NCBI GenBank assembly: GCA_001820685.1
Contig: MHQP01000013.1
Location: forward strand, 1 to 36,140
From: Candidatus Sungbacteria bacterium RIFCSPLOWO2_01_FULL_47_32
GTDB taxonomy: Bacteria; Patescibacteriota; Minisyncoccia; Sungbacterales; GWA2-42-14
DNA: 36,140 nt
Reading direction: 5' to 3'
The position numbers and the translations under genes were made by a program. Of this stretch, positions 2,918-36,140 are shown one piece after another. Positions within the stretch are counted from its first letter, which is position 1. Each line of letters opens with the position of its first letter. The notes beneath the pieces are model-generated. The model ran no database searches. It was not told the DNA's origin and worked only from the letters and a program-made list of their open reading frames with translations.

Positions 2918-3805
2918 ATGTCATATCTAAACGACGAAAAAATAAAATTTCTCGAAGAAAAGGCGAACGCTGTTCGCATGTCTATTATTGAAATGCTCTT
3001 GGCGGCAGGTTCCGGCCATACCGCCGGGCCACTGGGCATGGCCGATATTTTTACAGCACTGTATTTTCATATTTTAAAACACGACCCCAAAAACCCGGAG
3101 TGGCCGGAGCGCGATTTTCTTGTGCTATCAAATGGCCATATTTGCCCCGTGCAGTATGCGGCAATGGCGCACGCGGGATATTTTCCGATAGAGGAACTTT
3201 TAACGCTTCGTAAATTCGGAACACGTCTTCAGGGACATCCGCACCGCGAAAAGCTTCCCGGAATAGAAGTCTCTTCCGGGCCGCTTGGTTCCGGCCTGGG
3301 GCAGGCGGTCGGAATTGCTATCGGTTTGAAGATGGATAAAAAGCCGAATCAGGTCGTATGCATCATGGGAGACGGGGAACAGGACTGCGGGATTGTCTGG
3401 GAGTCTCTCATGCTTGCCGGGAAGCATCATCTTGATAATCTGACGGTCGTCATTGACCGGAATAACATTCAAATTGACGGAATGACTGAAGACATCATGC
3501 CGCTTGAGCCTATGCGAGCAAAGTACGAAGCATTCAACTGGCACGTGATAGATCTGAATGCTCATAACTTTCAAGACATTAACAGCGCATTTGAGGAGGC
3601 TCGTGGAATTTACGAAAAACCGGTCATACTACTTGCTCACACTATTCCGGGCAAAGGGATTCCGGAGATTGAATTTGACTATCGGTGGCATGGCAATCCG
3701 CCGGGAAAAGGGCCGGGAGATATTATTCCCCAACCGGAGCAGGGGAAAAAGTTTTTGGATGAACTAAGAACTCTTGGGGGTAAAATAAAAGGCGAGCATC
3801 AATAA
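2918..3805 (+). CDS. Transketolase, N-terminal (TPP-binding) subunit
   Basis: 295 residues, corresponding to the thiamine-pyrophosphate-binding half of transketolase. The TPP/metal motif GDGE is at residues 151-154, followed by the paired Asn in 'DRNNIQIDG'; 'SSGPLGSGLGQAVGIA' and the 'RWHGNPPGKGP' end are also typical. The enzyme moves two-carbon ketol units in the non-oxidative pentose phosphate pathway, in the cytoplasm, together with the C-terminal subunit at 5106-6116. Split transketolases are known in archaea and many bacteria, but the halves are usually adjacent; here about 1.3 kb and three genes lie between. The start ATG follows an AT-rich leader without a Shine-Dalgarno site. Confidence 0.93.
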   Translation: MSYLNDEKIKFLEEKANAVRMSIIEMLLAAGSGHTAGPLGMADIFTALYFHILKHDPKNPEWPERDFLVLSNGHICPVQYAAMAHAGYFPIEELLTLRKFGTRLQGHPHREKLPGIEVSSGPLGSGLGQAVGIAIGLKMDKKPNQVVCIMGDGEQDCGIVWESLMLAGKHHLDNLTVVIDRNNIQIDGMTEDIMPLEPMRAKYEAFNWHVIDLNAHNFQDINSAFEEARGIYEKPVILLAHTIPGKGIPEIEFDYRWHGNPPGKGPGDIIPQPEQGKKFLDELRTLGGKIKGEHQ

Positions 3806-3834
3806 CCCTTGTCGGACGCGGTCTAAGGGCGGCC

Positions 3835-3863
3835 TTGTCCAGCCGGAGGAGGTGCTCTATACT
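3835..3863 (+). promoter_or_regulatory. Promoter for the small membrane protein gene, leaderless start
   Basis: A -35 TTGTCC (3835-3840) and a -10 TATACT (3858-3863) are separated by 17 nt. Only 6 nt lie between the -10 and the ATG at 3870, so transcription should start at or next to the start codon. Confidence 0.55.
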
Positions 3864-3869
3864 AATCAT

Positions 3870-4115
3870 ATGCATATGAAATGCCCGGAAAACGATACGT
3901 TCCATCTTTCCTGCTGCGTTCTGCCGCTTGCGGGGATGCTCCTGTGGGCGTCGGCATTCGTTTCGTTCATATTCGCCCTGGTTTCTTTGGGCGGCTTTTG
4001 GTGGGGGATATTGTCGGTTGAGTGGTTTGATATAGCTCAAACCATCGGAATTCTCGCCATCGGGCTCAAGCTCGGGCTTCTTATCCGCATTCATCAATGT
4101 AACGGCAATCAATAA
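3870..4115 (+). CDS. Small membrane protein, two transmembrane segments
   Basis: 81 residues from the ATG at 3870; an in-frame GTG at 3852 would add six residues, but the TATACT -10 box at 3858-3863 would then lie inside the gene. The N-terminus is short and polar with Cys and His (HMKCPENDTFHLSCC). Two hydrophobic helices follow (about residues 20-43 and 55-75, counted from 3870), and the C-terminus is short and polar. I do not recognise the family. It sits between the two transketolase subunits and is followed after 5 nt by another membrane protein. The role is unknown. Confidence 0.6.
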   Translation: MHMKCPENDTFHLSCCVLPLAGMLLWASAFVSFIFALVSLGGFWWGILSVEWFDIAQTIGILAIGLKLGLLIRIHQCNGNQ

Positions 4116-4120
4116 TTTTT

Positions 4121-4498
4121 ATGGCAACTTTCTTAGATAACAACAAAAAAGGCGAACCAGGAAGCGGAACCGGCCTAAAGGGTTTTAATGTTTCGCTCAA
4201 ATCAGAAGACATTCAAAAGGAGAAGGCCCGCATCGTGAGGGTTCACCGCACGTTCTTTGATGTGAGCATGACCGAGCGGCTTTTGAGCCTCATAAATTTT
4301 TTGGCGCTTACCATTTTTTGCGCCCTGCTAACGCTTTTCCTCATCCAAAAAGGGTATCAGGCGGCCGACGAAATAAACACCATTTCGGACTCTCTCAAAG
4401 ACAAGCGCGTGTTAAACGACCCGGCGCTCGGAGAGAAGGGACTGCTTTCCGGCACGGATGAAGCGACAAACACGGAAAAGGTTCCGAGTAAAAAATAA
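4121..4498 (+). CDS. Single-pass membrane protein of unknown function
   Basis: 125 residues. The first 50 are polar and basic with many Lys and Gly. One strong membrane helix follows at about residues 50-76 (LLSLINFLALTIFCALLTLF). The last 50 residues are charged and would be on the opposite face. No enzyme motif is visible. It lies 5 nt after the small membrane protein, with no clear ribosome-binding site, which suggests joint transcription. The N-in, C-out orientation follows from the basic N-terminus (inference). Not a recognised family. Confidence 0.65.
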   Translation: MATFLDNNKKGEPGSGTGLKGFNVSLKSEDIQKEKARIVRVHRTFFDVSMTERLLSLINFLALTIFCALLTLFLIQKGYQAADEINTISDSLKDKRVLNDPALGEKGLLSGTDEATNTEKVPSKK

Positions 4499-4510
4499 CT
4501 AATTTATAAT
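4482..4510 (+). promoter_or_regulatory. Probable promoter of the first CBS protein gene
   Basis: A perfect -10 TATAAT (4505-4510) lies 7 nt before the ATG at 4518. The -35 is poor (TTCCGA at 4482-4487, 17-nt spacer). The short distance again implies a leaderless message. Confidence 0.45.
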
Positions 4511-4517
4511 AAAATCT

Positions 4518-5033
4518 ATGGATGAAGTTTTTGTGCGGGATTTTATGACGACGGAAGTCGTCTCCGTTAAAGCCGATACCTCGGTTCTTGATGTCGTTAA
4601 AATAATTTTTGTGAACGGATTTAACGGCGTGCCGGTTGTTGACGAAGAAGGGCGCCTTGCCGGTATCATTACGGAGTGGGACTTCATTGCAAAAGGGTCT
4701 CCGGTATTTTTCTCGCCTTTGGGAAGGCTTCTTCAGGAGCTCGACATTTTTCGAGAGGACGAAGGAGAAATTGACAAAAAGATAAAAGAGATTGTTTCTT
4801 CAAAGACTGCAGATCTCATGAACCGCGAGCCTATAACGCTTACTTCGAACAACACCGTGCAGGATGCAGCAGACCTCTTTTTGCGCCATCACAGGGTAAA
4901 CCCGGTCCCTGTTGTTGATAAGGACCGAAAACTTGTCGGTATCATCAGCCGATATGACCTTATTAAGCTTTACGCCGACCCGGTATTCTGGAAGAAACTC
5001 GCAGAGAAGAATCATGAAACGCAGGTGAAATAA
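4518..5033 (+). CDS. CBS-pair (Bateman) domain protein
   Basis: 171 residues made of two CBS domains. The first runs from 'VRDFMTTEVVSVKADTSVLD' to 'GRLAGIITEWDFIAKG' (about 5-58), the second from 'TADLMNREPITLTSNNTVQD' to 'RKLVGIISRYDLIKLY' (about 95-155), joined by a charged helical linker. CBS pairs usually bind adenine nucleotides and sense energy state. There is no attached catalytic or DNA-binding domain, so it probably acts by binding a partner or as a free sensor (inference). It lies between the transketolase subunits. The protein at 9325-9813 is a clear paralogue with the same 'HHRVNP.PV' signature in the second domain. Confidence 0.85.
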   Translation: MDEVFVRDFMTTEVVSVKADTSVLDVVKIIFVNGFNGVPVVDEEGRLAGIITEWDFIAKGSPVFFSPLGRLLQELDIFREDEGEIDKKIKEIVSSKTADLMNREPITLTSNNTVQDAADLFLRHHRVNPVPVVDKDRKLVGIISRYDLIKLYADPVFWKKLAEKNHETQVK

Positions 5034-5105
5034 CGCACTCGTGCGCAGGGTCTGCTTTTTCAAAAGTTTAGCAAGAAGTTTTTCTAATTCTTAATTTTAG
5101 CCGCT

Positions 5106-6116
5106 ATGCCCACAAATCCACAAATGAAATTAGCTGAAAATCTTCTCGACCTTAACACGGTAAAGCAAGAGCCGACCCGCATGGGCTTTGGGTTGGGACT
5201 GGTTCAGGCAGCAGACGAAAACCCCAATATAGTCGGACTCTGCGCAGATCTAACCGCTTCCACGAAAATGGACGACTTTGCGAAGAAATATCCGTCACGC
5301 TTCATCCAGATGGGAATTGGCGAGCAAAACCTTGCTGTGACCGCGGCTGGCCTTTCTGCCGTCGGCAAAATTCCATATATCACTTCGTATGCGATGTTCA
5401 GTCCCGGTAGGAATTGGGAACAAATTCGAACGACTCTTTGTTATAACAACTCCAACGTAAAGGTTGTCGGCTCGCATTCCGGTGTTTCCGTCGGTCCAGA
5501 CGGCGCAACGCATCAGGCGATTGAAGACATGGCTATTGCGCGTCCAATTCCGAACATGACGGTGTTTGCTCCGTGCGATTCTGTCGAAGGAAAAAAAATT
5601 GCATATGCAGTTTCAAAATTTTACGGTCCGGCATATATCCGCTATACGCGCGAAAAGACTCCCGTTATAACAACGGAAGAAACACCGTTTGAATTGGGGA
5701 AGGCTCAAGTTTTCTGGTTCGAACCGGAAGGAAAAAAGCCCGATGTTGCCATTATTGCTTGCGGTCCGCTTCTCCATAACGCAATTCTTGCCGCGTCCGC
5801 TCTTGAACGCGAGGGGTTGGCTGTGCGCGTCATAAACAACGGCTCGGTAAAGCCGATGGACGAAGCAACTATCGTTCAAGCCGCGCGCGACGCGGGCGCT
5901 GTCGTTACGGTTGAAGAGCACCAGACTGCGGGAGGAATGGGTTCTTCAGTTGCAGAAGTTCTCGCAAAAAATTTCCCTGTTCCGATTGAATTTATCGGCG
6001 TGCAAAATCGCTTTGGAGAGTCTGGCGAGCCGAATGAGCTTATTGAGGTGTTCGGCATGGGGGTAACCCATATTATTGAGGCGGTAAAAAAGGTCATTGC
6101 AAGAAAAAACGCTTAA
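5106..6116 (+). CDS. Transketolase, C-terminal (pyrimidine-binding) subunit
   Basis: 336 residues: the pyrimidine-binding domain (about 12-180) plus the transketolase C-terminal domain (about 195-330). The glutamate that activates the TPP aminopyrimidine ring is E73 in 'MGIGEQNLAVTAAGLS'. 'SHSGVSVGPDGATHQAIED' and 'VVTVEEHQTAGGMGSSVAEVL' are typical of transketolases and DXP-synthase relatives. It should pair with the N-terminal subunit at 2918-3805. The length fits a stand-alone C-terminal subunit. A hairpin terminator follows directly. Confidence 0.93.
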   Translation: MPTNPQMKLAENLLDLNTVKQEPTRMGFGLGLVQAADENPNIVGLCADLTASTKMDDFAKKYPSRFIQMGIGEQNLAVTAAGLSAVGKIPYITSYAMFSPGRNWEQIRTTLCYNNSNVKVVGSHSGVSVGPDGATHQAIEDMAIARPIPNMTVFAPCDSVEGKKIAYAVSKFYGPAYIRYTREKTPVITTEETPFELGKAQVFWFEPEGKKPDVAIIACGPLLHNAILAASALEREGLAVRVINNGSVKPMDEATIVQAARDAGAVVTVEEHQTAGGMGSSVAEVLAKNFPVPIEFIGVQNRFGESGEPNELIEVFGMGVTHIIEAVKKVIARKNA

Positions 6117-27613: not shown

Positions 27614-29245
27614 ATGAGTGAAGAAGGGAAAATCGCCTTTTTTACACCAGAAATCGCAGTAGACAATTCTCTCTATACGTATAGTGGGGGCCTCGGTGTT
27701 TTTGCCGGAGGCTTTCTTATAGCGGCCTGTAAAATGGGCCTTCCGGTCGTTGGTGTAACCCTCCTTCCACGGCAGGGTTACTATGATCAGTATCTGAACG
27801 AAAATCAGAAGATGGGTGTCCGGTATGTGAATCGGACGTACGAAGGAATTCTCGAGCCGACAGGCGTGAAGTTCAAAATCCCGCTGTCCGGGTCGGAAGT
27901 GTGGATCGAAGTATTGAAACTGCCTGCTGGCAGATTCGGAACGACTGATATCTATTTCCTTGATTGCGACATTGAAGAGAACGATGCTCTTTCGCGTTCG
28001 AACACTCTTCAGCTCTATGGCGGTTCGCGCGATTCGGGAGCAAACATCGAGCGAAAGATAGCACAGTCCTTCATTCTGGGGCGGGGTGGGGTACGAGCGC
28101 TTGAGCTTCTGAATATTCCGGTTGAGCTTTATCACATCAACGAGTCGCATGCCGCATTTGCCGCTCTTGAGCTTCTCGAACGGGAACTTCAGCTCACGGC
28201 CGATCTCGAGACCGCGACCGAGGTGGTGCGTTCACAGGTTGTGTTTACGACGCATACCCCGGTACGCGCGGGAAATCCTGAATACGGAACCTATAGCGAC
28301 GGTATCCCGATGGTGCTCAAAATGGGAAGCTTTGGAAAGGAAATTACCAGTGAAGTGCTTCGCCGGGTCGGCGGAGAGCCGTTCAACATGACGGCGTCTT
28401 GCCTCCGGCTTTCGCGAAAGGCAAATGCCGTGTCTCAAAAGCACGGAGATGTCGCGCAGAAACTCTGGCATTGGGTTGAAGGCGCTTCGCCCATCATTGC
28501 AATCACCAACGGAACAAGCCGGGATTTCTGGCAAGCAGAATCGTTCCGCAACGCGAACACCGCCGAAGATATGCGTTTTGCAAAGAAGCAGGGAAAACGT
28601 GCAATGCTTCGCTTTATTGAAGAACATACTGGCAAGCACTTAAGCGAGAATATTTTTACGGTCGTATGGGCTCGGCGCTTTGCCGAATACAAGCGGCCTA
28701 AGCTTCTTTTTTCTGATATGGAGTGGCTCAAGTCGCGCCTGTCGGCAAATGCTCTTCAGGTTGTTATCGCGGGACGTCCTCACCCGGACGACTATGCAAT
28801 GATTGACGTGTGGAATTGGCTCTATAAACGCTCAACCGAACTGCCGAACCTCGTCGTTCTTGCGGGATATGATCTTGATATGAGCAAGATTTTGAAAGCG
28901 GGAGCCGATCTGTGGCTGAATACTCCGCGCTCTCCGGATGAAGCCTGCGGAACTTCGGGAATGTCTGCCGCGATGAACGGAGCCATCAATATGTCAACTC
29001 CCGACGGATGGATGCCGGAAGCAAATCCGGAGAACTGCTTCCTTTTCGGGGCGCGGTTTGCGGCCTCTGATCAGGATGCGTATGACGCTGAAAAGCTTCG
29101 GGATGCGCTTGACCAAGTCTTAGTGATGTACTTCACGCCCGGCGAGTGGTCCAAGCGTCAGCTTGCCGCGAAACTCGAAGCCGAGATGCGCTGGACGAGC
29201 GACAGGATGGTTTCGCAGTATCAGGAACTCCTATATAAAAAGTAA
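27614..29245 (+). CDS. Alpha-glucan phosphorylase-like (GT35) protein lacking the PLP lysine
   Basis: 543 residues. Family GT35 features: 'YSGGLGVFAGG' near the start, 'YHINESHAAFAALELLE', 'VVFTTHTPVRAGNPEY', 'ARRFAEYKRPKLLF' and 'EACGTSGMSAAMNG' (443-456). In glycogen and maltodextrin phosphorylases the last motif is GTSxMK, and that lysine holds pyridoxal phosphate; here the residue is Ser451 (codon TCT). Without PLP, phosphorolysis should not be possible by the known mechanism, so it may be a glycosyltransferase with another donor or a regulatory glucan-binding protein (inference). The length suits the short archaeal/bacterial alpha-glucan phosphorylases. A terminator follows. Confidence 0.8.
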   Translation: MSEEGKIAFFTPEIAVDNSLYTYSGGLGVFAGGFLIAACKMGLPVVGVTLLPRQGYYDQYLNENQKMGVRYVNRTYEGILEPTGVKFKIPLSGSEVWIEVLKLPAGRFGTTDIYFLDCDIEENDALSRSNTLQLYGGSRDSGANIERKIAQSFILGRGGVRALELLNIPVELYHINESHAAFAALELLERELQLTADLETATEVVRSQVVFTTHTPVRAGNPEYGTYSDGIPMVLKMGSFGKEITSEVLRRVGGEPFNMTASCLRLSRKANAVSQKHGDVAQKLWHWVEGASPIIAITNGTSRDFWQAESFRNANTAEDMRFAKKQGKRAMLRFIEEHTGKHLSENIFTVVWARRFAEYKRPKLLFSDMEWLKSRLSANALQVVIAGRPHPDDYAMIDVWNWLYKRSTELPNLVVLAGYDLDMSKILKAGADLWLNTPRSPDEACGTSGMSAAMNGAINMSTPDGWMPEANPENCFLFGARFAASDQDAYDAEKLRDALDQVLVMYFTPGEWSKRQLAAKLEAEMRWTSDRMVSQYQELLYKK

Positions 29246-33612: not shown

Positions 33613-33642
33613 TTGACAAGTGCATAACCCAAGCGCTATAAT
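33613..33642 (+). promoter_or_regulatory. Consensus sigma-70-type promoter of the NAD cluster
   Basis: Perfect TTGACA (33613-33618), 18-nt spacer, perfect TATAAT (33637-33642). It is the best promoter in the window. Transcription should start near 33649, directly at the palindrome. Confidence 0.85.
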
Positions 33643-33649
33643 GGAAATA

Positions 33650-33677
33650 TAGTGTAAAAAATACACTAAATACACTA
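33650..33677 (+). promoter_or_regulatory. Palindromic operator candidate (NrtR-type)
   Basis: TAGTGTA (33650-33656), AAAAA, TACACTA (33662-33668): a perfect 19-bp interrupted palindrome, with a third copy TACACTA at 33671-33677. It sits at the predicted start point of the promoter, a usual place for a repressor. The NUDIX-winged-helix protein encoded downstream is the obvious candidate binder (inference). Confidence 0.65.
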
Positions 33678-33823
33678 GGAATGAGCTAAGAGATATATCT
33701 TTCAGCGTAGGTTCAGCGTTTTAATCGGCGTTTCAATCCGCGGATGGTATGCTGACTATCACGCAGATATGGCGCCGATTACTATTAAAGGACACTGATA
33801 AAATTCTTAATAATCTCAAAGGT

Positions 33824-34414
33824 ATGAAAATCGGTGTATTGGGGAGTGCGTGCAACCCCCCTCACAAAGCGCACATAAGGGCAGGAGAGCTTGTACGGAA
33901 AAAGCTTGGGCTTAACCGTATCCTTCTTATTCCGACGAGTCTGCCGCCTCATAAAGAAAAGCCCGCCGTTCTCCCTGCGGTCCGCTTGGAAATGGCGCGT
34001 CTTGCAGTAAAAGGCCTGCCGCATTGGAAAGTCTCTACTATGGAATTAAAGCGCCCGGGAAAGTCGTACACGAAAGACACTATTCGCGAGCTTAAAAAGA
34101 AATATCCGAAGGATGATTTTTTCTACATCATGGGCTCGGACAATCTCCTTACAATGCCAAAGAAATGGTTTGGGGGATACGAGAGTCTGGATTTATGCCA
34201 GTTCGTGGTGCTGGAACGCCCCGGATACCCGCTTTCAGAAGTCCCGCAAGCTATCCGCCAAAAAGTCATCGGCATACAGCAGTATGGAGCGTTCGTCATT
34301 TCAAGCACCATGATCCGGAAAGCGATTAAAGAAAAAAACGTGGAAAAAATAGCAAAATTTCTTTCGCCGAACATCCGCCAATTTATAAAAAAGATGCATT
34401 TATATGAAAAATAG
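33824..34414 (+). CDS. nadD: Nicotinate-nucleotide adenylyltransferase
   Basis: 196 residues from the ATG at 33824; a start at 33749 would add 25 residues unlike the family. The nucleotidyltransferase motif 'GSACNPPHKAH' is near residues 7-17 (the usual form begins GGxF/GGTF), followed by 'PPHK', and the C-terminal 'ISSTMIRKAIKEK' is typical. 'YIMGSDNLLTMPKKW' also fits NadD. It makes deamido-NAD from nicotinate mononucleotide and ATP. The next gene overlaps its 3' end by 11 nt. Confidence 0.9.
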   Translation: MKIGVLGSACNPPHKAHIRAGELVRKKLGLNRILLIPTSLPPHKEKPAVLPAVRLEMARLAVKGLPHWKVSTMELKRPGKSYTKDTIRELKKKYPKDDFFYIMGSDNLLTMPKKWFGGYESLDLCQFVVLERPGYPLSEVPQAIRQKVIGIQQYGAFVISSTMIRKAIKEKNVEKIAKFLSPNIRQFIKKMHLYEK

Positions 34415-35105
34415 CAAAGTCACGAAAACCAAAAAGGAACACATAAACACCGGAAACGCTAAAATAACGACAGACATCGTTATCTTTACCATTGAAGACG
34501 GCGAGTTGAAGATACTTCTGGTTAAGCGCAAATACGAACCTTTTAAGGGCAGGTGGGCGCTTCCTGGAGGGTTCATAAAAGAAGTGGAGACACTCGAAGA
34601 AACGGCGCGCAGGGAACTGTCCGAAGAAACCGGAGTTTCCGGCGTTTATCTTGAACAACTCTATACATTCGGCGAGCCGAAGCGCGATCCTCGGGGGAGA
34701 GTTGTAACCGCCGCGTACTTTGCGCTTGCACCTAAACACCTCATGAGTCTTTCCGCTTCCTCTGGCGCCGAAGACGCAAAGCTTTTTTCCGTAAAAAAGC
34801 ACCCCGAACTTGCTTTTGACCATGAGAAAATAATGCAAAAAGCCCTTCACCGCCTGCAAAATAAGATTCAATACACCAACTTAAGCTGGAGCCTTCTGCC
34901 CAACGCGTTCACGCTTTCCGAAATTCAGGCCGTTTATGAGCTTATCTGGGACAAAAAGGTTGATAAGAGGAACTTCAGAAAAAAGATGCTCACGCTCGGG
35001 CTCCTGAAGCCGCTTTCAAAAGAACGCACAGGCCTGCGTCAGCGTCCGGCAAAGCTCTATGCGTTCAAGACGAAAACATACGTCGAATTAAGGAGGTTTT
35101 TCTAG
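34404..35105 (+). CDS. nrtR: NUDIX hydrolase with NrtR-type winged-helix C-terminus
   Basis: 233 residues. A NUDIX domain (about 20-150) has the complete GX5EX7REUXEEXGU box in 'GGFIKEVETLEETARRELSEETGV' (given here only by key residues: G, E, REL, EE, G). The C-terminal 75 residues contain 'LLPNAFTLSEIQAVYELIW', 'KRNFRKKML' and 'RPAKLYAF', the winged-helix signature of NrtR regulators. NrtR proteins repress NAD-synthesis genes and respond to ADP-ribose or similar NAD metabolites. Because the NUDIX box is intact, it may also hydrolyse ADP-ribose. It overlaps nadD by 11 nt, so the two are coupled. Confidence 0.85.
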   Translation: MKNSKVTKTKKEHINTGNAKITTDIVIFTIEDGELKILLVKRKYEPFKGRWALPGGFIKEVETLEETARRELSEETGVSGVYLEQLYTFGEPKRDPRGRVVTAAYFALAPKHLMSLSASSGAEDAKLFSVKKHPELAFDHEKIMQKALHRLQNKIQYTNLSWSLLPNAFTLSEIQAVYELIWDKKVDKRNFRKKMLTLGLLKPLSKERTGLRQRPAKLYAFKTKTYVELRRFF

Positions 35106-35138
35106 AATCTACGCAAAACCTTTTCATTCTTTTGGGTG

Positions 35139-35996
35139 ATGAAAAACATCAGACTCTTTAGGACAAAGAAAGAATACGAAGACTTTGTTTTTGGCGAAGT
35201 ATTTACGGAACTGCTTATTCGCGATAATCCGTTTTACCGAAACCTTATCCAACTTATCATCGACTCAAAAGCGCCTGTTTTTTACTACCAATCCGACGAA
35301 TCGGAGCACGCGAACTTTTCCGGATATTACAACTTCGAGCTCATCCGCGAAACGTACGAGAATAAAACCCTGCGGAGCATGTATTTTTTGCACGACTTTA
35401 CCCACCTGTTGTTTTACTATCCGTACGACATGACGTCCGTCTCCGAGGAGGAATTCAGTGACGCCGTTACGCTTGCGGAATACACCGCTTCCAATGAAAC
35501 TGAAATTTTTATCCATTACCGCATTCCGGAACTCCGTGAGAAGGTCTTTCAGGACAGGCGGATATTTTTTGATATTTTGAAAGAACGGGAAACCCCCCAG
35601 CCCCCAATTCAGGCGATGTTTCAGGTGCGAAAGATTATTATTGAAACAGATTCGCTTGATTCGCTTTTCTTTACGAAGCCAGAAGACGCCCAAATACGGG
35701 ACACGTTCAAGTCTTACACGGGGAGCAATTCTTGGTGTAAAGAGCGCTATCAAGCATCCATCAAGCTTAAAAATCCGCATGAGTATTCCTATAAATTCTT
35801 TACCCCGCTGAATTACGAGCGAACCATAACGGTGTATCAATCGACGGCGGGAGAGGCGGAATATCAAAGGAATATTCTTTTGAACATAAGGCTTCTTTGT
35901 ATGATTTTGGGAATGGAAAATCCGCCGGAAACGTTTGAAGAATGTTTTGAAAAGCTTCCGCTTCTCGAGGGAAAAATTATGTTTCCAAAAAAGTAA
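35139..35996 (+). CDS. Unknown protein of the NAD cluster with an HDxxH motif
   Basis: 285 residues from the ATG at 35139 (a GTG lies one codon earlier). Mainly helical and soluble, no signal peptide. The most notable motif is 'LHDFTHLLFYYP' (HDFTH at 85-89) followed by several Glu (103-105). COQ4 proteins carry HDxxH-x11-E as a metal-binding motif, so a distant relation is possible, but the Glu spacing differs (x13). It lies between nrtR and the start of nadE, suggesting a role in NAD or redox metabolism (inference). I recognise no family with certainty. Confidence 0.6.
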   Translation: MKNIRLFRTKKEYEDFVFGEVFTELLIRDNPFYRNLIQLIIDSKAPVFYYQSDESEHANFSGYYNFELIRETYENKTLRSMYFLHDFTHLLFYYPYDMTSVSEEEFSDAVTLAEYTASNETEIFIHYRIPELREKVFQDRRIFFDILKERETPQPPIQAMFQVRKIIIETDSLDSLFFTKPEDAQIRDTFKSYTGSNSWCKERYQASIKLKNPHEYSYKFFTPLNYERTITVYQSTAGEAEYQRNILLNIRLLCMILGMENPPETFEECFEKLPLLEGKIMFPKK

Positions 35997-36052
35997 TTTT
36001 ATTGAAAGTTTTATAAAAAGTGGTACTTGTTGGGCATACGAACTTCAAAAAT

Positions 36053-36140
36053 ATGCCCGGCACATTCATGACGACTAGCAAAAAAACTGAACAAGCTGGA
36101 TACGCGCGGGTTGCGGCAATCGTTCCGCGCCTCCGCGTCG
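36053..36140 (+). CDS. nadE: NAD synthetase, N-terminal fragment cut by the window edge
   Basis: 29 codons are visible, with ATGs at 36053 and 36068. The visible residues end in 'GYARVAAIVPRLRV', matching the start of the nitrilase-like glutaminase domain of glutamine-dependent NAD synthetases. The fragment is too short for proof, but the position after nadD and the NrtR-type regulator supports it. It would turn deamido-NAD into NAD, completing the pathway step after NadD. Confidence 0.6.
   Translation, partial: MPGTFMTTSKKTEQAGYARVAAIVPRLRV

Follow-up and report, generated by a model that had tools for sequence, protein, structure and literature searches.

Gene layout and regulatory elements of the locus

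The window analysed in this study is the whole of contig C13 (36,140 nt), which belongs to a genome of 1.15 Mb rated 98.5% complete. At its right end, on the forward strand, lies a group of genes for the synthesis of nicotinamide adenine dinucleotide (NAD), one of which encodes a regulator of the NrtR type. In the direction of transcription, the locus holds a promoter of the sigma-70 type (33613–33642), a predicted NrtR operator (33650–33668), a leader of 155 nt between the operator and nadD (33669–33823), nadD for nicotinate-nucleotide adenylyltransferase (33824–34414), nrtR for a protein with a Nudix domain and the NrtR winged helix (34404–35105), an orphan gene (35139–35996), and the predicted 5' end of nadE for glutamine-dependent NAD synthase, of which the first 24 codons are present (36068–36140). 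Because the window is the whole contig, nadE is cut at position 36140. We believe that this locus is very probably an operon for NAD biosynthesis under NrtR control, found in a Paceibacteria-like (Patescibacteria) genome, with a repressor that would be released by ADP-ribose.

An earlier, sequence-only reading of this DNA had described a consensus promoter and a perfect palindrome at the start point, and both were found again. The promoter hexamers TTGACA and TATAAT, spaced by 18 bp, match the consensus at 12/12 positions, and the perfect palindrome TAGTGTA-N5-TACACTA lies 7 bp past the −10 box, where transcription is expected to start. A promoter scan of the window returned 4 such sites where 5.0 were expected, and a promoter-type match alone therefore carries little weight; in relatives, promoter-like hexamers precede the operator at the corresponding position. 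The palindrome, with the spacer AAAAA, was the sole match in the window at up to three mismatches (shuffled sequences averaged 0.36) and the sole match in the window genome at up to one mismatch. The weaker sites of the window genome were considered as additional operators, and they look like chance, with 13 sites at up to three mismatches versus 33 for the reversed control. A third half-site, TACACTA on the forward strand at 33671–33677, lies within a 9-bp direct repeat shared with the right arm of the operator, and it was not seen in the operators of relatives.

The nrtR gene starts at 34404, before the end of nadD at 34414, which gives the overlap of 11 nt noted earlier. In its product, the NUDIX domain PF00293 was found at residues 25–145 (74 bits) and the winged helix NrtR_WHD (PF21906) at residues 163–221 (78.5 bits), both over the cut-off. 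The sequence matched the PDB entries of AraR (5bs6, E value 4e-41) and of SoNrtR from Shewanella oneidensis (3gz5, 2e-36), and the AlphaFold model (mean pLDDT 81) matched the folds of 5bs6 (4.6e-23) and 3gz6 (1.3e-20). Thus, the Nudix domain and the NrtR winged helix are joined in one protein, which agrees, together with the comparative evidence given below, with the assignment of the regulator to the NrtR type.

The comparison covered 93 genomes, including the window genome (G000). A full-length NrtR with an identity of at least 38% is encoded by 15 of them, the window genome included, and the close relatives with NrtR are G002, G003, G004, G005, G011 and G012. In addition, 571 relatives of the seven close NrtRs were confirmed in genome contigs from databases, and the best 80 of these 571 were used (loci L081–L160); being the best 80, they lean towards the query. 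They include sequences from Harrisonbacteria, Paceibacter, Woesearchaeota, Chloroflexi, Omnitrophota, Gammaproteobacteria, Flavobacteria and others. In the tree, the seven NrtRs of the clade form a group with those of Harrisonbacteria and Paceibacter (100/99), and this group is separate from the NrtRs of the class that carry Met or Val at position 42.

The Nudix box GX5EX7REUXEEXGU is intact in the window protein, as the sequence-only reading had claimed in setting it apart from many NrtRs. That contrast holds for the characterised proteins: the accessible text of PMC4666351 describes the box as impaired in NAD-linked NrtRs, and that of PMC12735969 reports that most NrtRs have substitutions at some of the signature residues. 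It does not hold within the branch itself, where the intact box was found in 66/95 sequences (7/7 of the clade, 59/80 of the best-ranked database sequences and 0/8 of the other NrtRs of the class), so that a peculiarity of the window protein was ruled out. An intact box is necessary for an active ADP-ribose pyrophosphatase, and it is insufficient for activity. By our reading of the PDB sequence alignment, Arg42 stands opposite Arg41 of SoNrtR, which contacts the phosphate of ADP-ribose according to the portion of PMC4666351 available; the phosphate-contacting arginine of NrtR is therefore present. All 66 intact-box sequences, the window protein among them, have Arg42, and 11/29 of those with a degraded box have Met or Val. 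Residues G56, R94, D139 and H140 are invariant (95/95), and the winged-helix motifs DKRNFRKK and RPAxLY are well conserved.

The presence of nadD was borne out by TIGR00482 (130.9 bits against a cut-off of 112.45), and the protein is about 50–52% identical to the NadD encoded next to nrtR in relatives. An in-frame upstream start is possible at 33749, but the start at 33824 is likely since relatives begin at the same residue. The open reading frame at 36068 translates as MTTSKKTEQAGYARVAAIVPRLRV. Its segment AGYARVAAIVPRLRV scored 39.9 against seven NadE N-termini, and the runner-up among the 42,714 stop-free 15-mers from six frames of the window scored 25.0. A full nadE directly follows nrtR in G003, G004, G005, G011 and G012, and NCBIfam names the product as an NAD(+) synthase of the PRK02628 type in G005 and G002 (858 and 879 bits). 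By comparison of the N-terminus and of gene order, the gene at the right edge is predicted to be nadE, as had been proposed.

Operator conservation and its link to NrtR

In all six close relatives, the promoter of either nadD or nrtR carries the palindrome, perfect in five and with a single mismatch in one. For the window clade as a whole, the operator stands at the promoter in 7/7 genomes, six perfect and one with one mismatch. The five spacer letters have diverged, and the arm letters and the 5-bp length of the spacer are fixed; the palindrome to which the earlier reading had tied the regulator is thus conserved in relatives with the same gene order. In the alignment as we read it, the operators of relatives overlap a −10-like hexamer or follow it within 7 bp, and this position fits the site of a repressor.

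Across the 93 genomes, 21 perfect sites were found, all of them in 8 of the 15 NrtR-encoding genomes; the 78 others had no perfect site (Fisher test, 6e-8). At up to one mismatch, 12/15 genomes with NrtR had a site, compared with 5/78 of the others (6e-9). The operator pattern read backwards gave 11 matches over the same genomes as a control. In the best 80 of the 571 database loci (0.80 Mb), the half-sites were matched 58 times at a spacer of 5 and 0–6 times at any of the other spacers between 0 and 12; a site lay within −250 to +30 of nrtR in 32/80 loci versus 5/1101 control stretches. Because of this enrichment at spacer 5 and near nrtR, TAGTGTA-N5-TACACTA is, as predicted from these sequences, the operator of a broad NrtR branch that extends beyond the window clade. 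According to the text at hand from PMC4666351, NrtR motifs differ strongly among groups.

Two further genomes of the comparison are mentioned here for their arrangement. G058 (L200, L201, L202) has four perfect operators, three of which do not adjoin recognisable NAD genes. In G035 (L206), operators lie on both sides of a Val42-type NrtR gene, which has nadM-NAMPT on one flank and pnuC plus a NadR-like gene on the other, and we regard this locus as a candidate for a regulated amidated NAD salvage route.

The NAD regulon in close relatives

The order nadD-nrtR-nadE was found in 5/6 close relatives (G003, G004, G005, G011 and G012), so the linkage of nrtR to genes of NAD metabolism, with nadD before it and nadE after it, is not confined to the window. 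NrtR and nadE also occur together across the 93 genomes (10 with both, 5 with NrtR only, 4 with nadE only and 74 with neither; p 3e-7), where nadE was counted as present at an E value below 1e-20, a threshold that was set after the table had been viewed and that excludes G090 (8e-15).

In the clade, 17/17 perfect sites adjoin genes of NAD metabolism. The single site of the window genome lies at nadD. In G002, perfect sites lie at nrtR, at nadE, between nadK and the gene of an ADP-ribosylglycohydrolase (ARH), at a flavoenzyme-nadA pair and at pnuC-nadR, and the one site of G003 also lies at flavoenzyme-nadA. G004 has sites at nadD, at nadA and between the flavoenzyme gene and nadK; G005 has them between nadD and nadA and at nadK; G011 at nadD and between the flavoenzyme gene and nadK; and G012 at nadD, at nadK and at nadA-nadC. 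Three more sites of the clade have one mismatch, before nadD in G003, before ARH in G005, and on C3 of G002 without a recognised NAD neighbour. Genes were identified with profiles for nadA, nadC, nadK and the flavoenzyme in G012; ARH, pnuC, nadR, nadE, pncA, pncB and the flavoenzyme in G002; the flavoenzyme in G003; nadE, pncA and pncB in G005; and nadA (PF02445) in all six relatives. The remaining regulon genes were identified by similarity, by eye or with tblastn. NadA (PF02445) was found in 7/93 genomes, namely six of the clade and G039.

The sequence-only reading had called the module self-contained, and this description failed in the relatives, where the operator also fronts nadK, ARH, nadA, nadC and pnuC-nadR, and where pncA and pncB follow nadE (NCBIfam gives these names in G002 and G005). 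By gene content and operator position, we conclude that this is a genuine NrtR regulon, predicted to be broader in relatives than first noted; there, the switch seems to govern almost the whole of NAD metabolism.

Two parts of the regulon deserve separate mention. The operator stands directly before ARH in G002 (L193:2619-2637) and G005 (L197:4570-4588); ARH is an enzyme that should release ADP-ribose, the presumed ligand of NrtR. A DNA-ligase-like gene (PF01068, L197:3463-4449) lies between the operator-bearing nadK and ARH of G005. A DAO/Mqo-like flavoenzyme is encoded beside nadA and/or nadK at the operator in relatives (L198:4058-5392, L193:4346-5695, L196:1227-2597, L192:789-2180 and L199:1281-2780). 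In G012 it matches PF01266 (81 bits) and PF06039 (62 bits), its nearest PDB entry is 8w75 (E value 1e-21), and its scores are far below every NCBIfam cut-off listed. Given its position and the shared operator, we propose as a guess that it may substitute for NadB; a literature search on such a replacement gave nothing on point.

Proposed mechanism, alternatives and significance

Our computations show the domains, the fold, the conservation of the operator and its association with the presence of NrtR and with NAD genes; from these we infer binding as a dimer, repression, ADP-ribose as the ligand and its hydrolysis, as follows. NrtR, the product of the second gene, would bind TAGTGTA-N5-TACACTA as a dimer at the transcription start and block RNA polymerase, so that nadD, nrtR, the orphan gene and nadE would be repressed when NAD is plentiful. 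Breakdown of NAD would raise ADP-ribose, the Nudix domain would bind it, NrtR would leave the operator, and NAD synthesis would be switched on. With its intact catalytic box, NrtR may also destroy its own inducer and end the signal. A further proposal, which we offer as tentative and doubtful, is that the NrtR of the clade acts as both sensor and quencher of ADP-ribose, with ARH under its control in two relatives, and that the flavoenzyme beside nadA replaces NadB as the source of iminoaspartate. If the sensor-quencher part were true, supply and destruction of the inducer would be united in one regulon that spans de novo synthesis, salvage and NADP formation.

Several results weigh against an ADP-ribose-released NrtR operon at this locus. 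The window genome has a single operator, and the distance from operator to nadD is 155 nt in the window versus about 14–34 nt in relatives. The NCBIfam model NF050029, 'ADPR responsive transcriptional repressor NtrR', matched residues 19–226 with 182.5 bits and did not reach its cut-off of 400, so the nrtR product is a relative of that family and not a member. Among the best 80 of the 571 database loci, 48/80 lack a site near nrtR at up to two mismatches, and G042 and G067 have NrtR without a site in the stretches read. In the window genome assembly, nadE, pncA, pncB and nadA have no match elsewhere, so its NAD pathway may be incomplete. NdnR of Corynebacterium glutamicum responds to NAD and not to ADP-ribose, according to the part of PMC6800001 available, and the ligand here could therefore differ from ADP-ribose as well.

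A regulator that senses NAD or another nucleotide as a co-repressor, instead of ADP-ribose as an inducer, is unlikely in our opinion but is the likeliest of the alternatives: NdnR binds DNA better with NAD (PMC6800001, same portion), and NadQ, whose winged helix matches the nrtR product by sequence, has complexes with NAD and ATP according to PDB titles. Against it, the Nudix ligand site with Arg42 and the four invariant residues resembles that of ADP-ribose binders. The intact box would also suit a protein that works chiefly as an ADP-ribose pyrophosphatase and whose DNA-binding domain is vestigial, but this is very improbable given the good conservation of the winged helix and, along with it, of the operator.

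The other two alternatives question the link between regulator, operator and NAD genes. Among PDB entries, AraR (5bs6) is matched best by both the sequence and the fold of the regulator, and the AraR_C profile also matches the winged helix. This would be expected of a regulator from the AraR/XylR side of the family, which responds to sugars, with NAD genes as neighbours only by chance. Yet in relatives nrtR lies among NAD genes, which also come after its operator, we recognised no gene for arabinose or xylose in the vicinity of nrtR, and the Nudix box is intact here and degraded in AraR (PMC4666351, text available in part), so we give this idea hardly any credence. The palindrome could instead be a feature of RNA or of the promoter, such as a leader hairpin or a terminator, that NrtR does not bind, since inverted repeats of 7 bp are able to fold into hairpins and the downstream leader is structured. 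This too is most improbable: arms and spacer length are fixed and the spacer sequence varies, the palindrome abuts or overlaps the −10 box, and it recurs before other NAD genes, with perfect copies only in NrtR-bearing genomes.

The NrtR-controlled operon is of a known kind. SoNrtR (PDB 3gz5, 3gz6 and 3gz8) shares the Nudix domain with winged helix and the phosphate-contacting arginine and is about 40% identical in the fold alignment, whereas its box is degraded (RKLAEKTAV in the alignment). BtAraR of Bacteroides thetaiotaomicron (5bs6, 5deq), the closest PDB match, differs in binding L-arabinose and controlling sugar genes (PMC4666351, as far as its text is available) and in its degraded box (VLAELTGL in the alignment). 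MsNrtR of Mycobacterium smegmatis is an auto-repressor of NAD genes released by ADP-ribose, as proposed here, but its operator is GTTTTCGA-N7-TCGAAAAC in place of TAGTGTA-N5-TACACTA and its hydrolase activity is lost (PMC6800001, in the accessible part). The many-phyla branch sampled by the best 80 of 571 loci has the same operator letters and spacer, and often an intact Nudix box, with other neighbours such as nadM-NAMPT (L115) or NAMPT (L140).

Candidate-phyla bacteria are usually seen as cofactor importers with little regulation. The small genome studied here is predicted to possess a regulated NAD operon, and its relatives have an NAD-wide regulon that includes quinolinate synthase (NadA). 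The system is new and unusually complete in this lineage. Our literature search, with the founding NrtR papers and most subscription papers outside its range, found nothing linking NrtR with Patescibacteria or candidate phyla. This operator is sufficiently well defined to serve for predicting NAD genes in the genomes of uncultured organisms, and it draws attention to the flavoenzyme beside nadA.

The window genome is a partial case. In relatives, nadE, pncA, pncB and nadA share a contig stretch with the nadD operon, and in G005 all four are within about 7 kb; one unassembled stretch past 36140 could therefore hold all of them, and true loss is also possible. The profile PF02540 (NAD_synthase) had no match in the assembly, as expected if the nadE of this genome is the copy cut at the contig end.

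The leader at 33669–33823 is more stably folded than shuffled sequences (z −3.24). It is present once in the window genome and is absent from relatives. A riboswitch was considered and set aside, with no Rfam match at E values up to 1; the leader is structured, but it occurs in this genome only.

The orphan gene at 35139–35996 encodes 285 aa with the motif HDFTH, in line with the HDxxH protein of the sequence-only reading, but it stands outside the conserved module, as it lies between nrtR and nadE in the window genome only and was found in 1/383 genomes of the class, its own. The protein had no match in Pfam, NCBIfam or PDB; among 379 genomes of the phylum it matched itself and one weak hit (E value 0.0098). 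None of its 47 pattern matches in IMG/VR was confirmed, and no relative was identified among plasmids and phages. The AlphaFold model, made without an alignment, was unusable (mean pLDDT 37). A COQ4-like protein (zinc motif HDxxH-x11-E) was rejected because the glutamate is not at the required spacing. PHROGs gave one match (E value 0.0011) to a family whose function is unknown.

Elsewhere in the window, at 2918–6116 and 27614–29245, split transketolase-like genes and a glycogen-phosphorylase-like gene were recognised by eye only, which suggests sugar metabolism in this small genome.

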